Positions 32,495-39,669 of a stretch of DNA of 64,000 bases are shown piece by piece. The notes below the pieces were generated by a model. It saw only the letters and a program-made list of their open reading frames with translations. It had not been told where the DNA came from and made no database searches. The translations under genes were made by a program, and so were the position numbers. Source of the stretch: Ciceribacter sichuanensis (GTDB taxonomy: Bacteria; Pseudomonadota; Alphaproteobacteria; Rhizobiales; Rhizobiaceae); the NCBI RefSeq assembly GCF_024055605.1, contig NZ_JAMXLX010000008.1, positions 131,501-195,500 on the forward strand, in the 5' to 3' direction. How positions within the stretch are numbered: position 1 is the first letter of the stretch; every line of letters begins with the position of its first letter.

Positions 32495-33265
32495 TTACTT
32501 GCCCCATTCCGGGCCGCCATCGGTGCAGGTCTGGCCCCCATCGACAGGCAGGACAATTCCGGTGATCCAGGCCGCTTCATCACTGGCAAGAAAAGCAACC
32601 GCCGAGGCAATCTCTTCAGGTTGGCCTGCCCGTCGCAACGGAATCCGGTCCCACGCCTTATCGAGAAGCGCGTCGTCATCCATGATAGCATCCACCATTC
32701 CCGTGACAGTAAGCCCGGGCGCCACTGTATTGGCTCTGACACCGAACTTGCCGAGGTCACAGGCTGCTGAGCGGGTCAAATTCGCAACCCCACCCTTTGC
32801 AGCATTATAGGCCGCATGGCTCCAGCCGCCACCAAGGGATGACACGGAGCCGATGTTGACGATCGAACCCTTGGTCTCCTTCAGATGCGGGACCGCTGCA
32901 CGGCTCATGTAGAAGACACCGGAGAGGTCAGAGGCAATGCACTCGTCCCAATCCTGATCGCTCGTCTCTTCGATGGTGCCGACGAGATTCATGCCGGCGG
33001 CATTGACGACAGTGTCGATCCGGCCGAAGCGCTCCACGGTCGCGGCAACAAGGGCGTCGCAGTCCGGCCGTGAAGAAACATTCGCGACAAAGGTGCCACT
33101 GCGGTCGGCCGGCATCTTGGAGGCAACGTCCGACAACCGCTTCTCCGTCCTGCCGGAGATCATCACGGACGCTCCTTCTTCAAGAAGCCGGTTAGCAATG
33201 GCGGCGCCGATACCGGAACCACCGCCCGTTACGATTGCTACCTTTCCATCAAATCGCTTTGACAT
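32495..33265 (-). CDS. Short-chain dehydrogenase/reductase (SDR)
   Basis: A 256-residue SDR from the ATG at 33265, after GAAGGAG; 40 further open codons upstream overlap the end of the next SDR gene and were not used. Motifs: TGGGSGIG, NAAG in place of NNAG, catalytic S in GSVSSLGGG, YNAAKGG, and the end AAWITGIVLPVDGGQTCTDGG. It is the last gene of a leftward ABM-SDR-SDR unit. Confidence 0.9.
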   Translation of the reverse strand: MSKRFDGKVAIVTGGGSGIGAAIANRLLEEGASVMISGRTEKRLSDVASKMPADRSGTFVANVSSRPDCDALVAATVERFGRIDTVVNAAGMNLVGTIEETSDQDWDECIASDLSGVFYMSRAAVPHLKETKGSIVNIGSVSSLGGGWSHAAYNAAKGGVANLTRSAACDLGKFGVRANTVAPGLTVTGMVDAIMDDDALLDKAWDRIPLRRAGQPEEIASAVAFLASDEAAWITGIVLPVDGGQTCTDGGPEWGK

Positions 33266-33338: not shown

Positions 33339-34178
33339 TCAGTTTGTCGGGAAGTCGGCGGAACGAGACAAAGCTTCCCAGGCAAGGACGTTCGCCTTGA
33401 GGTCTTCAGCCTTCTTCAGGGCTGCGTCCGCGGCGTCATTGCCGAGCGGAAGGTGATGCGGAGGCTGTTGCGCCAGCACGGCTTTCCGGATCGCCTTTGC
33501 TGCGCGCGCGGGATCACCGGCCTGCTTTCCGACCGATGCGTGGTAAGCACGACGTGCCTCGCCCGCTGTCGCCTCGTAATCCTCAATGGACGCGGAGACC
33601 TCGTTCGACGAGCCTGCCCATTCCGTCCGGAACGCGCTTGGCTCGACGGTCATGACGTTGATCCCGAGTGGGACGACTTCTTTCCGGAGCGTATCCGACA
33701 GGCCTTCCACGGCAAATTTGGTCGCGCAGTAATAGCCTACGCCGGTGTAGCCAACCAGGCCGCCGATTGATGTCAGATTGACGATCGTACCACCGCGGCG
33801 GGCTCGCATATGCGGAAGCACCGAATGGATCGTGTTGGCGACACCAAAGAAATTGACATCAAACAGGCGGCGGGCGTCGGCTTCGGCGGTTTCTTCAATA
33901 GCACCGAAGAAACCGATCCCGGCGTTGTTGATCAGAACGTCGATGCGTCCGAAGTGCGCTTCTGCAGCGTCAACAACCTTTTGGCACTGATCCCGATCGA
34001 TGACGTCGAGCGGGAGGATCAGGGCATCGCCCTTCTGCTCAAGATCCGCGATCTTGTCGGTTTTGCGAGCCGTCACCACGACTTTTTCACCGGCTTCCAG
34101 CAGGTGTTCCGCGATATAGCGACCGAAGCCTGTAGAGCATCCGGTTACGAGCCAGACTTTAGGGTTTTGCGTCCTCAT
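33339..34178 (-). CDS. Short-chain dehydrogenase/reductase, retinol-dehydrogenase-like
   Basis: A 279-residue SDR. The cofactor motif is TGCSTGFG, with TARKTDK after strand 2 implying NADPH. NNAGIGFFG, YCATKFAVEG and VEPSAFRTEWAG place it among the RDH-like SDRs, which are longer at the C-terminus and lack the GG ending. AAGGAG precedes the ATG, 20 bases after the monooxygenase-like gene. Confidence 0.9.
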   Translation of the reverse strand: MRTQNPKVWLVTGCSTGFGRYIAEHLLEAGEKVVVTARKTDKIADLEQKGDALILPLDVIDRDQCQKVVDAAEAHFGRIDVLINNAGIGFFGAIEETAEADARRLFDVNFFGVANTIHSVLPHMRARRGGTIVNLTSIGGLVGYTGVGYYCATKFAVEGLSDTLRKEVVPLGINVMTVEPSAFRTEWAGSSNEVSASIEDYEATAGEARRAYHASVGKQAGDPARAAKAIRKAVLAQQPPHHLPLGNDAADAALKKAEDLKANVLAWEALSRSADFPTN

Positions 34179-34198: not shown

Positions 34199-34501
34199 TC
34201 AGACCTGCGGCGACCGTTGCTGGTAGCCGCAGATTTCAACGTCTTCGACGCAAAGGTCCGGGACCTTCGCCATGAAGACCTCGACGTAAGGTGTGCTCAT
34301 ATGCAGTTTGAAGTCGGAGGCGTGCCGCCAGTCTTCGAGCACCATCCACACGTCGGGAACGTCATTGGACTGGTGGATCTCGTAGCGGAGGCAGCCTTCC
34401 TCGTTTCGGGACGGAGCGACGAGCTGAAGCAGTTCGTCACCCAGATCTCCTGAGCGGCCCGGCTTTGCGGTGAAGTAGGCCACATCGGTGAGGTCAGCCA
34501 T
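34199..34501 (-). CDS. Putative quinol monooxygenase (ABM domain)
   Basis: A 100-residue protein of the YgiN/ABM ferredoxin-like dimeric alpha-beta barrel: YFTAKPGRSGDLGDELLQLV, EEGCLRYEIHQS, WMVLEDWRHASDFKLHM and STPYVEVF. Members oxidise quinols or act as cofactor-free monooxygenases. It is the first gene of the leftward ABM-SDR-SDR unit and is preceded by an AraC-type direct repeat. Confidence 0.88.
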   Translation of the reverse strand: MADLTDVAYFTAKPGRSGDLGDELLQLVAPSRNEEGCLRYEIHQSNDVPDVWMVLEDWRHASDFKLHMSTPYVEVFMAKVPDLCVEDVEICGYQQRSPQV

Positions 34502-34569
34502 TTCAGGTCTCCTTCTCGGTTAGGGCAACACCCGCATAGTGACGGCATGCCTGGAAAAGATCTGCCGCG

Positions 34570-34599
34570 TCTTTGCGGGAGCTGTCGTGATCTTGCTCC
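34570..34599 (-). promoter_or_regulatory. AraC-type direct repeat upstream of the ABM-SDR-SDR unit
   Basis: CTGTCGTGATCTTGCTC (34582-34598) agrees at 16 of 17 positions with CTGTCGCGATCTTGCTC at 36403-36419. A weaker half TCTTTGC lies 21 bases to its left. Two helical turns is normal spacing for AraC-family half-sites. Confidence 0.5.
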
Positions 34600-34601
34600 T
34601 T

Positions 34602-34886
34602 TCAGACGCCGTTGATCGCGATGATGCGCGATGCGGCCGCAGCCTGCCGCTGAGCGGCCAAGGGCGCGTATTCGGGGGATGCGAAGAGCTGGCGGATCGC
34701 ATCCTTGTCCGGAAATTCGATGATAAGCATGTTGGTGGCGGTCCAGCCCTCCAGCTCCAGTGGTGTTTCGTCGATTGCGATGAGCTTGCCGCCGGCTTTG
34801 GCGACGAGCGGCAATGCCTTTGACCTGTAATCTTCGATAGACTTCATGTCGTGAATGTCGAGGTCAACGACGAGGTACGCAGTCAT
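34602..34886 (-). CDS. DUF1330 family protein
   Basis: A 94-residue ferredoxin-like barrel protein: YLVVDLDIHDMKSIEDYRSK, then GGKLIAIDETPLELEGW and MLIIEFPDKDAIRQLFASPEY, the DUF1330 signature. Related to ABM proteins in fold; function unknown. It is the last gene of the SDR-flavin reductase-DUF1330 unit. Confidence 0.9.
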   Translation of the reverse strand: MTAYLVVDLDIHDMKSIEDYRSKALPLVAKAGGKLIAIDETPLELEGWTATNMLIIEFPDKDAIRQLFASPEYAPLAAQRQAAAASRIIAINGV

Positions 34887-34940
34887 GGTTGTCTTCCTTT
34901 CGTAATGGGTTGCAGGTGATTTTTTTGGGCCCGGCGCCTC

Positions 34941-35489
34941 TCAGGGGAGATGGCGCCATTTGACCATGCGTTCTTTGAGATCGAGCATGCCACCATCGAC
35001 GGTGAACGTGCCGTCGCCGCGGTGATGCATCATTCGACGCTCTTTTCGGGTCTCGTTGATCCAGATCCTCGTCGCTTCAAGGATGAAGAGGTTGTAGGGA
35101 TCCGAAAGCCTGGTATCGACGACCCGGCATTCTATGTTGGCCAGGCAGTCTGAGAGGAGCGGGGCTGATACGTCCTTGGCAGGTCGCGTTTTGAGACCAT
35201 ACCTCTGGAATTTATCTACCCGATCGCCCGAACAATTGCCGACGTCGACAACCGTTTCGGCGAGATCCAGACCGGGGACTGCGATGACACATTCTCCGGT
35301 TTTTCGGAGAGCCTGATAGCTGTGATCCCACGGCCCGATGACACAACCGATCAGCGGCGGGTCATGCTGGATCATCATATGGAAGCCCATTGTCATCACA
35401 TTGGGCTTGCCGTTATCGCTCGTTGAGACCATGACGATTGGGCCAGGTTCCAGAACGCGATATGCTTGAGATGCGGGTAATTCCTTCAT
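34941..35489 (-). CDS. Flavin reductase family protein (FMN-binding)
   Basis: A 182-residue protein of the flavin-reductase-like split-barrel. GPIVMVSTSDNGKPNVMTMGFHM and PPLIGCVIGPWDHSYQALRKTGECVIAVP are the FMN-binding core. Family members reduce free FMN/FAD for partner monooxygenases or bind FMN as electron carriers. No dedicated oxygenase is next door, although ABM-type proteins are. It lies between an SDR and a DUF1330 gene. Confidence 0.88.
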   Translation of the reverse strand: MKELPASQAYRVLEPGPIVMVSTSDNGKPNVMTMGFHMMIQHDPPLIGCVIGPWDHSYQALRKTGECVIAVPGLDLAETVVDVGNCSGDRVDKFQRYGLKTRPAKDVSAPLLSDCLANIECRVVDTRLSDPYNLFILEATRIWINETRKERRMMHHRGDGTFTVDGGMLDLKERMVKWRHLP

Positions 35490-35506
35490 GACAATCTCCC
35501 TTGAGA

Positions 35507-35530
35507 GGTCCCTGCATCTAGGCAGGGACC
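35507..35530 (-). other. Intercistronic hairpin between the SDR and flavin reductase genes
   Basis: Perfect nine-base stem GGTCCCTGC / GCAGGGACC with a six-base loop, 16 bases past the SDR stop, without a T tract in the direction of transcription. Likely a processing or partial attenuation site. Confidence 0.5.
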
Positions 35531-35546
35531 CTTCAGGGCCGGTCTG

Positions 35547-36296
35547 TTACCAACCCTGTTCTACTGGCAGAACGAACAGCTCGGCGACGTCCACATGAGC
35601 CGGGGCCTGGGCGGCGAAGACGATGGTGTCGCCGATATCCTCGCCCTGGAGGAAGGTCATCTGGCTCGCCAGCTCGTCCATCTGCTTGCGGTAGCCCGGA
35701 TCGGTGATGTGATCGTAGAGCTCGGTGGCAACGGCGCCGGGCTGGATGCAGGTCACGCGGATGCCGTGTTTCTGGCCGACTTCCATACGCAGGCCATCAG
35801 AGAAAGCCGTGACCGCATGCTTTGTCGCGCAGTAGACCGACAGACCCTTGAACACCTTGCGGCCAGCGATCGAGGACATGTTGAAGACATGGCCTGAATG
35901 CTGCTTGATCATCTGGGGCAAAACGGCTGCCGTCGTGTTGAGCAGGCCCTTCACATTAACGTCCACCATTCGCTGCCACTCGTCGACCTTGAACTGGTCG
36001 ATATCGGAGAGCGGCATCAGGCCAGCATTGTTGACGAGGATGTCGATCGAACCATAGGCATCGATCAGCTTCTTCACGCCCGCATCGACCGAGTTCGTGT
36101 CAACCACGTCCATTTCGATCACAAGAGCTTCGCCGCCCTTGGCTTCAATCTGGTTCTTGAGATCTTCGAGCTTGTCGGTGCGCCGTGCAGCGATACCGAC
36201 CTTTGCACCGGCTTCAGCAAGCTTCGCAGCAGTCGCGGCTCCAATGCCACTCGATGCTCCGGTCACCAGTGCGATCTTTCCATTGAGGTTGGTCAT
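35547..36296 (-). CDS. Short-chain dehydrogenase/reductase (SDR)
   Basis: A 249-residue SDR from the ATG at 36296, nine bases after AAGGA. Motifs TGASSGIG, AARRTDKLEDL (NADPH-type basic residues), NNAGLMPLS, MSSIAGRK, YCATKHAVT and QPGAVATEL. The ending DIGDTIVFAAQAPAHVDVAE with no GG motif resembles YdfG-like enzymes acting on hydroxy acids or small carbonyls. First gene of its unit, behind a tandem AraC-type repeat. Confidence 0.9.
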   Translation of the reverse strand: MTNLNGKIALVTGASSGIGAATAAKLAEAGAKVGIAARRTDKLEDLKNQIEAKGGEALVIEMDVVDTNSVDAGVKKLIDAYGSIDILVNNAGLMPLSDIDQFKVDEWQRMVDVNVKGLLNTTAAVLPQMIKQHSGHVFNMSSIAGRKVFKGLSVYCATKHAVTAFSDGLRMEVGQKHGIRVTCIQPGAVATELYDHITDPGYRKQMDELASQMTFLQGEDIGDTIVFAAQAPAHVDVAELFVLPVEQGW

Positions 36297-36317
36297 TGTC
36301 TTCATTCCTTGTCTGAA

Positions 36318-36420
36318 GCCCACCACCGCGGTGGGCGTTTCGTTTTAACAAGGAGGAATTTAAGCCGTTCATCAGCGCCCTTCTCACGGGCTCTTGCTCG
36401 ACCTGTCGCGATCTTGCTCG
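36318..36420 (-). promoter_or_regulatory. Control region with tandem AraC-type sites and leader hairpin
   Basis: TCTTGCTCG occurs twice in direct orientation at 36392-36400 and 36412-36420, exactly 20 bases apart, upstream of the SDR. A leader hairpin GCCCACC / GGTGGGC lies at 36318-36336. The same half-site recurs at 34591 and 38134, and an AraC gene lies 1.8 kb away. Confidence 0.55.
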
Positions 36421-36727
36421 AAACGTAAGATGTTAAAAACTAGCCTCGGCGATGGTGACTGGGGCGGCAGGCCAGTTTAACGACGGACTAGCCAGACCAA
36501 CTGAAAGTCTTCGTCGATTTCGACGTAAACGAGCATGCGGCCGCAGCCACGCGCGCTATTGCGTTTGCTGAGCCGATCAAAGTATCAGGTAGGGGGCCCA
36601 TTATCCGCTTCCCGAAATCAGGGCATGTTTAGGGAGACGAGACACACTACAGGTGAGGCCACTCGTCTGGAGCTGATGCTGCTGATGCAAGCGTGCCAAC
36701 GGCGCTTGATGGAGCAAAAACTCTCTT
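36421..36727. other. Intergenic stretch without recognised genes
   Basis: About 300 bases between the AraC-type sites and the 3' end of the cyclase gene. Short frames exist but none has both a ribosome site and family features. Confidence 0.5.
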
Positions 36728-37948
36728 TCAGCCGACGGCATGATGGGGAGTATCAAGCGTGTAAAGCATTTGCGCGCCTTCTACGCCCTTGAGTGCGAAC
36801 CGGCCTACGCATGCAAGACGCTGGCGATTACGCCCCTCCATACAGTCTGCGAAGTTTGAAGAGGTTAGCAGGTTTACATCCAGCGACCGACACAATGAAA
36901 CGATGCGACTTACCTCGTTTACGGCGGGACCTATCACAGTGAAATCGAGCCGGTCCTCGCTTCCGATATTCCCGTAGAAGACATCACCGATATGTAGCCC
37001 GAGACAGACTTCCGTTGTGGGACGGCCTTCCGATGTCCTCCGGGTATTAAGGGATCTCAGCCTCAGGCGGAGGAGGTTTTCGGCCTGCAGCGCGGCGTCA
37101 CAAGCATCAATCTGTCGATCCGCCCTGAAAATTGCCAGGATACCATCTCCGATTAATTTCAGGACCGTCCCGCCAGCCTCATGGACTGCTGAGATGACCG
37201 CATCACTGTAATCATTCAGGAGAGGAATGATCTCCTCAGGCGACACTGAGGCAGAAATTCTTGTATAGTTTGCAAGGTCCGAGAACCACAGGGCCGCGGA
37301 TATCCGTTCCGACGCGCCCCGGTTGATTTTACCTTCGAAAACTTTTCGTGCTGCGTCGTGCCCAAGATAGACTTCGGCAATCGTCCTTGCGATCCGCGCA
37401 AGCGCAGTGCTTTTAATCGCCAATGCAAGAACCGGCAAAAGTTTGCGAAGGTTTTGAAGATCGACATCAGAGAAACCACTGGGGTCGCGAGTCGCGAAGT
37501 GAGAGAAGAAGCAGTCCATCTCTCCAATGGTCCCTTGCTTCTCAAATCGATGGATGAAGGCCACAAAGTCTATAACCCCGGAGTTACGCATGTCGTCGAG
37601 CATCGCGAAATCGGTCGGGTCTCCTCGTCCGATACGACGTCGGACATCGGACTCCTTCCCAGCCCAGAGATAGTAGAAGGCTGAGCGCTTCCAATTTTCA
37701 AAGGCGTCTCCAGAACTGCTAGGACCATACTCAAACTCTGTCTCCACGACTTGCTGACTGTCCCATCGAAAGGCGCGCCCCTCGTGAACCGGGTGCAGCG
37801 TGTCAATAAGTGCAAGACTGCGGTCAAGCGGTAAACCGGCGTCACGACATGCTGCACAAAAGCCGCCGAGCAACACGGACTCGCTTGCTCCGTGAAGCCC
37901 TTGCTGTGCTACCCAAGCGGAAATCCTCTCAATGTCTTCGTTAGTCAT
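36728..37948 (-). CDS. Adenylate/guanylate cyclase (class III)
   Basis: A 406-residue protein. Residues 1 to about 205 are an uncharacterised region with no membrane span; the class III catalytic domain follows from about 212. Metal-binding aspartates D224 (FSDLANYT) and D268 (LIGDGILAIF), base-selecting D335 (LDFTVIG) and transition-state N344 and R348 (VNEVSRI) are all present, so it should make cAMP. Rhizobia carry many such soluble cyclases with varied sensory N-termini. Its promoter region contains one AraC-type half-site at 38134. Confidence 0.88.
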   Translation of the reverse strand: MTNEDIERISAWVAQQGLHGASESVLLGGFCAACRDAGLPLDRSLALIDTLHPVHEGRAFRWDSQQVVETEFEYGPSSSGDAFENWKRSAFYYLWAGKESDVRRRIGRGDPTDFAMLDDMRNSGVIDFVAFIHRFEKQGTIGEMDCFFSHFATRDPSGFSDVDLQNLRKLLPVLALAIKSTALARIARTIAEVYLGHDAARKVFEGKINRGASERISAALWFSDLANYTRISASVSPEEIIPLLNDYSDAVISAVHEAGGTVLKLIGDGILAIFRADRQIDACDAALQAENLLRLRLRSLNTRRTSEGRPTTEVCLGLHIGDVFYGNIGSEDRLDFTVIGPAVNEVSRIVSLCRSLDVNLLTSSNFADCMEGRNRQRLACVGRFALKGVEGAQMLYTLDTPHHAVG

Positions 37949-38133
37949 ACCACTTAGAATTTCCGCGCAAAATTGTCAGTGACTTACTGTGCGGGTTGAG
38001 TTTCACCGAAACAAGAGCCTTTAGCTTCTAATCACACCAATGCTGCAGTTCCCGACCGTTGTTCATCGCTGCCTCCCGGGTATTTACGGAACACCCGGAA
38101 ACGATCTTTCGCACCTTTGGGAGCCTGGCGCGC

Positions 38134-38142
38134 TCTTGCTCG
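38134..38142 (-). promoter_or_regulatory. Further TCTTGCTCG half-site
   Basis: The nine-base half-site of the tandem repeat at 36392/36412 recurs here in the same orientation, between the AraC gene end and the cyclase start, followed by AAATCGCGACA. Confidence 0.35.
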
Positions 38143-38164
38143 AAATCGCGACAAGGCAAAAAAA

Positions 38165-39169
38165 TCAGCCCCGCCGGTAGTGGCTCGGCGGCAGGCCGGT
38201 TTCCCGACGGAAGACCTGGGCGAAGTGACTTGGGCTCGAATAGCCGACGGACATGCCAATCTCGATGATGCTCGTATCCGTCTCCTGCAGAAGAAGCTGT
38301 GCCCGGGCAACGCGCTGGCGAATGAAGTAGCGCGAGGGCGAGAGCCCGGTCGCCTTCTTGAACAAACGGCTGAAATGGAATTCACTCATGCCGACTGTCT
38401 CGGCAATCTGTGCGAGATTGAACGGCTCGGCTAAATTTTCCTCAAGATATGCGACGGCTCGACGAAGCTTGAAGCCTGGAAGTGCATTCTGACGATCATC
38501 CGCGGCTTCACTCGCGGCATAATTTCGGATCAGATGCACGGCTAGTGTCTGGGCAAGACCCTGAATGAACAGCTGACTTCCTTTCCTCTCAGACGTGAGT
38601 TCTTGGTGGATCACGGAAAGAAGGAGTGACAGCTGCGTGTCCTTACCCCCTGAAATATCGCGGAGTGCGGGAGGAGCGGCGCAGCCCAGCACATCATAGG
38701 CGACGCGCTCGAACAGCGGAACGGAGAGATAAAGGTGCATGACCTGGAAAGGTGCGTCGCCGATGGCGCGCCAGCGCATCTCGTATGGGGTGGGGGAGCG
38801 GGTCAGGAAAAAATCACCAACTGTGACCGTGTTGGCGACCCAGTCCCCGTCAAGGTCGCGTTCCTCAACGACAGCTTCGCCTGACATCACCCAAACGATC
38901 AATGGTTCTGCAACAGCAGGAACAAGAAATGGCTCCTGCTTGTTGAGACGGGAATAGACCTGCACGAACATGTCGTTCCACGCCGGACTATCGCCACTAA
39001 CAAGCGTGCGACCGGCAATATACTGTTCAAGCCCGACCGGGGACGTCCGCTCGGGCCTCGCAATGACCTCTTCCAGTTCGGGCACGAGTGCCGCTGGATA
39101 AATGGGATTTCCGGTAACGGCCGGGATTGGGGGCAAAACGTTTTGGCGGGATGGTTCGATGGTTTCCAA
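38165..39169 (-). CDS. AraC-family transcriptional regulator with cupin-type sensor domain
   Basis: A 334-residue regulator starting at a TTG (39169) seven bases after GAGAGG. The N-terminal cupin-like domain (about 55-190: WVMSGEAVVEERDLDGDW, MRWRAIGDAPFQVMHLYLSVP) senses a ligand. The C-terminal double helix-turn-helix is complete: FNLAQIAETVGMSEFHFSRL and SIIEIGMSVGYSSPSHFAQV, ending PPSHYRRG. It is the likely reader of the TCTTGCTCG repeats upstream of two nearby SDR-containing operons. Confidence 0.9.
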   Translation of the reverse strand: METIEPSRQNVLPPIPAVTGNPIYPAALVPELEEVIARPERTSPVGLEQYIAGRTLVSGDSPAWNDMFVQVYSRLNKQEPFLVPAVAEPLIVWVMSGEAVVEERDLDGDWVANTVTVGDFFLTRSPTPYEMRWRAIGDAPFQVMHLYLSVPLFERVAYDVLGCAAPPALRDISGGKDTQLSLLLSVIHQELTSERKGSQLFIQGLAQTLAVHLIRNYAASEAADDRQNALPGFKLRRAVAYLEENLAEPFNLAQIAETVGMSEFHFSRLFKKATGLSPSRYFIRQRVARAQLLLQETDTSIIEIGMSVGYSSPSHFAQVFRRETGLPPSHYRRG

Positions 39170-39219: not shown

Positions 39220-39669
39220 TCAATGGAACATATCCCGGTTCACATCTCCGCCCACAACCACCATCAATGATGCAATGCAGCATTTGGTTTCGTCCGATGA
39301 GAAAATAAATCCGGTCTCAACGCACTCTTTGGGGCAAACGAAATCCACATCAACGTCACATGTAAATATTTCCGGCTCCGTAGCACCCTTCGGGAAACCT
39401 CCATTGACCTCTTTCTCAAGAAGCAACCGCCCGGCGGCACGCTCCCCTCGCATCGCTCGAATGAAAGTGGCTGCTGCACCGCCCAACATGATCCACTCCA
39501 TCGTTCGTAGGTTTGGGCTAGCATCGCCCGTGACGATCAAGGATCGGTAGAACGAAGCTCCAATGAGATTGTCTGATCGCGCCAATGTGGATGCTGGCAT
39601 CTGCCGCATGGAGATTTGAGCGCTCGTGAAACTGCCAAGGGGTCGGAACCCCAGCGCCTCAGTCATCAC
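39220..39669 (-). CDS. Hypothetical protein coupled to the CMD gene
   Basis: A 149-residue frame whose start overlaps the stop of the CMD-domain gene (39666-39669), suggesting translational coupling. No clear family. The last third (GFIFSSDETKCCIASLMVVVGGD) resembles the end of short-chain dehydrogenases (SDE...VTG...VVDGG), but the Rossmann and YxxxK motifs are absent, so it may be a decayed SDR fragment or an unrelated protein. AGCGCTCAAATC lies upstream and no separate promoter is evident. Confidence 0.45.
   Translation of the reverse strand: MMTEALGFRPLGSFTSAQISMRQMPASTLARSDNLIGASFYRSLIVTGDASPNLRTMEWIMLGGAAATFIRAMRGERAAGRLLLEKEVNGGFPKGATEPEIFTCDVDVDFVCPKECVETGFIFSSDETKCCIASLMVVVGGDVNRDMFH

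Follow-up and report, generated by a model that had tools for sequence, protein, structure and literature searches.

Whether a short sequence repeated beside an AraC-type regulator gene marks the operator of a local regulon is the question raised by the stretch of Ciceribacter sichuanensis DNA analysed here, which is 64,000 nucleotides long (the window) and belongs to a 207.5-kb contig in a 5.48-Mb genome. On its minus strand the genes run in the order araC, a cyclase-domain gene, a first unit of short-chain dehydrogenase/reductase (SDR1), flavin reductase and DUF1330 genes (36296-34602) and a second unit of ABM, SDR2 and SDR3 genes (34501-32495). As a preliminary description of this DNA had reported, two of the three plus-strand copies of the 9-mer TCTTGCTCG (36392-36400, 36412-36420 and 38134-38142) lie 20 bp apart before the first unit, an AraC gene is adjacent, and all sites point the same way, ahead of leftward genes. 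The 9-mer by itself was dropped as evidence, its frequency being at chance level both in the window (3 copies against 0.96 expected, with at least 3 in 7 of 100 shuffles) and in the genome (35 copies against 61 for the reversed pattern). What departs from chance is a 40-bp tandem, read on the leftward strand as GAGCAAGATCsCGACAG and then GCAAGgnCCCGAGAG with a period of 20 bp, followed after 17 bp by a -10 element TAnnTT. The protein encoded by araC very probably acts on two such tandems as a dedicated local activator of both units, and the AraC-type direct-repeat operator and local regulon of the preliminary description appear well founded in view of the class II geometry, the conservation, the genomic rarity and the way in which the site tracks the AraC ortholog. 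The features concerned, all on the minus strand, are listed with the evidence for each (PWM, position weight matrix).

38165-39169, minus strand: AraC-type regulator gene (Pfam HTH_18 2.4e-25, HTH_AraC 1e-23, Cupin_6 0.00018, the last below cut-off)
36400-36419, minus strand: distal half-site of the SDR1 operator, GAGCAAGATCGCGACAGgtc (tandem search, PWM, genome model)
36380-36399, minus strand: proximal half-site of the SDR1 operator, GAGCAAGAGCCCGTGAGaag, with its 3' end at the -35 position (tandem search, PWM, genome model)
36357-36362, minus strand: SDR1 -10 element TAAATT, 17 bp past the operator (exact-distance conservation in aligned loci)
34579-34598, minus strand: distal half-site of the ABM operator, GAGCAAGATCACGACAGctc (PWM, genome model, gap comparison)
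34559-34578, minus strand: proximal half-site of the ABM operator, ccGCAAAGACGCGGCAGatc, period 20 (PWM, gap comparison; the genome model reaches only 34572)
34536-34541, minus strand: -10-like CACTAT before ABM, spaced as in the SDR1 promoter (promoter comparison)

The comparison was made with 11 plasmid loci, chosen by the authors from match lists, and with 33 of 45 loci of AraC relatives from species genomes (L020-L052), 12 distant matches to the helix-turn-helix (HTH) part (L053-L064) being left out. Among these 44 loci plus the window, 41 contain both araC and SDR1; L034 (which stops 93 bases past araC), L046, L047 and L050 stood outside the upstream alignment and were handled separately. 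The tandem was present before SDR1 in 41 of 41. A gap-free tandem search scored 30-40 of 41 letters in 40 of the 41 regions, with the -10 in place each time, and the remaining locus (L032), in which araC overlaps the site, was missed by the simple aligner and recovered by the model. The aligned sequences are kin, with an effective number of 11.7 at an 85% threshold, and within them the positions G3, C4, A5, A6, A8, C12, A14, A16 and G17 of the first half and G23, C24, A25, C32, G35, G37 and A38 of the second are invariant in 40/40. At its exact distance the -10 element keeps its first T in 39 of 40 loci and its A and last T in all 40. In 15 author-selected loci the mean pairwise identity reaches 0.90 and 0.79 over the two half-site cores, 0.69 over the -10 and 0.86 over an anti-Shine-Dalgarno arm in the leader, compared with 0.41 for the linker, 0.34 for the spacer and 0.33 for upstream sequence, so that islands of conservation lie over the half-sites, the -10 and the leader arm only.

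The two halves agree with each other at 8-13 of 15 positions at an offset of 20 and at 7 or fewer at the other offsets from 15 to 25; the period of 20 thus shows the direct repeats about two helical turns apart that are a feature of AraC/XylS operators. The proximal half-site lies at or over the -35 at a fixed distance from the -10, a class II feature, in 40 of the 41 aligned regions. Judged by sequence, the geometry is that of the class II AraC/XylS activator type, with direct repeats, a box A and a box B, a poor -35 and a fixed 17 bp to the -10. In the Pm promoter the repeat period is 21, compared with 20 here, where in addition two units lie beside a linked regulator. According to the excerpt of PMC5481539, the activator XylS contacts RNA polymerase and Pm has two homologous 15-bp direct repeats with a box A and a box B each; the tandem of two-box repeats is common to both systems, but the boxes are TGCA-N6-GGTA there and GCAAG...CGAnAG here. 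The part of PMC6392122 on AggR-dependent promoters likewise places the regulator site over the -35 at a fixed distance (21 or 22 bp) from the -10, with a single site such as TTTTTATTATC instead of the GC-rich tandem found here.

The match to an extended site before the second unit was also noted previously, and CTGTCGTGATCTTGCTC indeed stands at 34582-34598. This site is a full tandem, with a second half CCGCAAAGACGCGGCAG exactly 20 bp on; that half (GCAAAGACGCGGCAG) had been overlooked. The ABM operator occurs in 15 of 20 DUF1330-ABM gaps, and the other five gaps are only 32-42 bases long.

Both tandems are rare in the genome. A sequence-only genome model, built from 26 distinct operators without the -10, scored the SDR1 site (36380-36419) at 49.3 bits with E 3e-12 and the site before ABM (34572-34598) at 25.6 bits with E 8e-5, and the third-ranked match had an E of 0.23. 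In the genome-wide motif scan advocated in the preliminary description the bare 9-mer stays at background; the tandem model yields two good sites, both in the window. Among the 150 of 6224 first-look candidates that were scored, no other convincing site emerged, and the regulator would therefore be a dedicated local one. With the window and L020, its closest relative, excluded from training, a PWM gave 58.8 bits to the SDR1 tandem (36380-36419) and 26.4 bits to the ABM tandem (34559-34598); in 50 first-order Markov simulations of the window the highest score was 5.4. The pattern CTTGCTC-N13-CTTGCTC occurs once in the genome and its reversed control not at all; a loose tandem pattern with up to 2 mismatches gave 334 matches against 293 for the reversed control, and a half-site pattern with 0 or 1 mismatch found only the two window sites.

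It was of interest to see whether the motif follows this AraC outside the training loci. Orthologs at E 1e-60 or better are present in 7 of 297 genomes of the order, and a motif of at least 25 bits in 6 of the 297, all among the seven ortholog genomes and three of them outside training; in the seventh (G194) a match of 19.1 bits lies 12 bases away from araC. Two further orthologs were found among 398 genomes of the phylum (G939 and G844). Three of these nine ortholog genomes hold training sequences (G000, G585 and G539), and in the six untrained ones, at 47-68% identity, the top-scoring genomic match falls no more than 0.9 kb from araC in 6/6 (E 2.7e-6 to 0.01). The gene arrangement at the sites varies, with an SDR gene before araC (G580), a divergent SDR gene (G939, G844), a run of aldo-keto reductase, cupin and araC genes in the remote locus L050 and, in G128, two operators, before SDR1 and before a DUF1330-SDR pair; outside training, too, the sites precede SDR, aldo-keto reductase or DUF1330-SDR genes. 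Eight operators from seven untrained loci all keep the A and the final T of the -10 at the exact distance (8/8), and TAnnnT is present in 6/8. Because the best matches lie beside araC across these arrangements, the motif is tied to this AraC.

The regulator itself has the C-terminal double HTH (HTH_18/HTH_AraC) of the family, at 89.1 bits against a cut-off of 33.6, and HTH_18 is present in 25 of 25 aligned orthologs. Its N-terminal part may be a ligand-binding cupin-like domain, with a Cupin_6 score of 21.8 bits below the cut-off of 26.7; at E up to 0.01, AraC_binding matches 23 and Cupin_6 21 of the 25 aligned orthologs. The predicted structure has a beta-rich N-terminal half (mean pLDDT 77.4), and its full-length structural matches are ToxT/Rns-like, with low query-normalised TM-scores of 0.28-0.35. 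A redox-cysteine sensor is unsupported, the only cysteine of the window protein being kept in half of 44 orthologs.

In the mechanism proposed, a dimer of the AraC-type protein would occupy the direct repeats of both tandem operators, each half-site comprising about 15 bp with a box GCAA(G) and a box CGAnAG at a period of 20 bp and the proximal half at the -35 position. When a signal occupies the N-terminal domain, RNA polymerase would be recruited and units 1 and 2 transcribed.

Several observations weigh against this proposal. Neither the SDR1 nor the ABM promoter is listed by a sigma-70 consensus scan, a method that depends on a good -35; at the ABM site the model aligns positions 1-27 only and the -10 is poor (CACTAT), and the window has no operator upstream of araC itself. 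Weak sites may have escaped the genome scan, with its 150 scored candidates out of 6224, and the half-site pattern with up to 3 mismatches gave 123 genomic matches against 35 for the reversed control, for which composition is a possible cause. In 17 of the 297 genomes the model finds matches at E up to 0.01 in the absence of an ortholog, all at 22.5 bits or less, and its alignments in L050, L194 and L195 stop at positions 27-29. Finally, L046 has an AraC relative (63% identity) without SDR1 and without the operator, and in L047 the relative has lost both its second HTH and the operator. In this relative (L047 6001-6930) other sequence stands in place of the second HTH, with an SDR-like fragment after it; a deletion may have taken both the HTH and the operator.

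Among other explanations, the protein could be a repressor, or could switch between repression and activation by looping between its operators as in E. coli, where canonical AraC loops DNA; the 1.8-kb separation of the two window operators would suit such a scheme. We consider it unlikely, since a proximal half at the -35, a -10 exactly 17 bp away and a poor -35 are typical of activation, no second site lies beside the SDR1 promoter, and many relatives have one tandem only. That the motif is bound by another regulator, with AraC a bystander kept by synteny, would agree with the position of araC beside SDR1 in most loci and with the LysR-family genes found nearby in annotated relatives. It is nevertheless very improbable, the motif following AraC through changes of target and orientation (G580, L050, G939, G844) and its direct-repeat form fitting AraC/XylS. 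A chance or composition effect of a GC-rich genome is possible for the site before the cyclase gene taken alone, and the chance-level 9-mer and the abundance of loosely matched half-sites speak for it; for the tandems it is scarcely credible given their E values, their PWM scores far above the simulated maximum and their cross-genus conservation.

The site just mentioned, before the cyclase gene, had been described as another half of the motif. The 9-mer is indeed there at 38134-38142, but the whole site scores -8.9 with the PWM, inside the range of simulated maxima, and it was rejected as a proven third operator.

38102-38141, minus strand: probable decayed third operator in the araC-cyclase gap, with one good half-site (PWM -8.9)
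36728-37948, minus strand: adenylate/guanylate cyclase-domain gene between araC and SDR1 (Pfam Guanylate_cyc 7.7e-14)

The corresponding gap of L026 contains a good operator (26.1 bits, PWM 7.8), which by eye resembles the ABM promoter; because this place scores better there, decay is the likelier reading, and the window half-site would at best be a decayed third operator and promoter. In 11 of the 41 loci araC and SDR1 are separated by the cyclase gene. In L020 (7006-10857) about 3.9 kb, an insertion with open reading frames (ORFs) of 687 and 239 amino acids, separates araC from the matched part of the cyclase (residues 135-406). Past the araC stop several close relatives have a palindrome, ACCTGTCGCGA-N12-TCGCGACAGGT, which overlaps half-site 1 and has no T-run after it; it lies at about 7008-7042 in L023 and in part at 38126-38160 of the window. 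On the minus strand from araC to SDR1 a terminator scan gave a single weak match, located within the cyclase gene, and terminators were less numerous than in shuffled sequence.

The leader of SDR1 contains two complementary arms, which could hide its ribosome site.

36347-36355, minus strand: anti-Shine-Dalgarno arm CTCCTTGTT, leader nucleotides 2-10, spanning the predicted transcription start (complementarity, folding)
36305-36313, minus strand: Shine-Dalgarno arm GACAAGGAA (complementarity, folding)

In the window 8 of 9 positions of the arms are complementary and the first arm stands at a fixed distance from the -10. Among 40 listed leaders (37 distinct ones and L189-L191), 33 have 8 or 9 of 9 pairs, a count that uses the best-fitting 3' arm in the last 32 nucleotides and so leans towards pairing; outside the training loci the arm was anchored on the Shine-Dalgarno sequence. 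Folding gave a 7-bp stem in L045 and a bulged stem in L048. For comparison, a portion of the fetched DNA has 115 genes with a good Shine-Dalgarno sequence; six of these genes show 9/9 pairs, five of the six being SDR1 by position, and 12 show 8/9. When folded with 100 upstream bases, all 40 leaders had a probability below 0.3 (median 0.01) that the Shine-Dalgarno sequence is unpaired, and when folded from nucleotide 8, 33 of 40 exceeded 0.5. Removal of the arm must free the ribosome site, and therefore the informative facts are the conserved complementarity and the fixed register to the -10. Stem pairing is 90.4% compared with 43-57% in slid controls, and both sides of the stem are changed in L190 (CTCCTCGT/ACGAGGAG) and in L019; covariation of the stem is not above shuffles, its score being reached by 127 and its paired cells by 183 of 500. 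Where araC lies upstream and co-directional in untrained loci, two cases out of three have the arm (L189 and L190, 8/9 pairs), L191 with 4/9 being a counter-example, and it is absent (0-4/9) at five operators without such an araC (L188, L050, the second site of L189, L194 and L195), an association confounded with the descent of the SDR1 gene. The leader (36297-36356) also has an inner hairpin whose sequence differs between lineages. Rfam gave nothing at the leader and one sub-threshold match elsewhere (MicC, E 0.11).

Transcription canonically starts about 7-9 nucleotides after the -10, and the arm occupies nucleotides 2-10 after it. Because the arm straddles the predicted start, only mRNA begun at the AraC-dependent promoter would expose the ribosome site, and read-through mRNA from the co-directional araC or cyclase gene would stay translationally silent. 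Such a gate against read-through, a cellular counterpart of the T4 gene e leader, is a tentative idea, which we regard as possible rather than probable. In the portions of PMC3014915 and PMC2988022 available, a hairpin hides the ribosome site of T4 gene e and I-TevI in transcripts started upstream, and a promoter near the ribosome site gives transcripts without its 5' half. The SDR1 leader has the same layout if the predicted start is right; the difference from these portions is that phage early and late promoter timing operates there and a cellular operon downstream of its own regulator here. Part of the literature search for precedents of the leader gave no result, the portions of PMC5006887 and PMC8450116 consulted say nothing on read-through gating, and transcription start sites of S. 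meliloti exist according to part of PMC3616915. If true, the gate would enforce signal control twice with one short DNA stretch and offer a simple way to stop the regulator's own transcript from leaking into its target, in a layout documented for phage T4 genes.

The genes of the two putative operons are as follows.

35547-36296, minus strand: SDR1, short-chain dehydrogenase/reductase, first gene of unit 1 (Pfam adh_short 2.7e-61; orthologs)
34941-35489, minus strand: flavin reductase, unit 1 (Pfam Flavin_Reduct 9.4e-30)
34602-34886, minus strand: DUF1330 gene, unit 1 (Pfam 4.7e-24)
34199-34501, minus strand: ABM, putative quinol monooxygenase, first gene of unit 2 (Pfam ABM 6.4e-19)
33339-34178, minus strand: SDR2, unit 2 (Pfam adh_short 3e-53)
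32495-33265, minus strand: SDR3, unit 2 (Pfam adh_short_C2 1.7e-65)

These enzymes suggest carbonyl, quinone or aromatic redox chemistry and, by inference, a role in carbonyl/redox detoxification; the best-scoring solved relative of SDR1 is the clavulanic acid/clavaldehyde dehydrogenase 2jah. An ORF at 39220-39669, between araC and a carboxymuconolactone decarboxylase-like gene, has no Pfam match up to E 1. A search of open-licence papers on the locus, partly with guessed locus names and without subscription papers, found none. The AraC regulon is ordinary in kind and well defined, with one possibly unusual leader. Through it an AraC-type family on many rhizobial and agrobacterial plasmids gains a precise operator and a two-promoter regulon, and the targets of AraC relatives become readable from sequence, being SDR and aldo-keto reductase genes again. 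The 31-41 kb part of the window matches 66 plasmid records, mostly from Sinorhizobium and Agrobacterium, and in 59 of these the identity is 80-95%.

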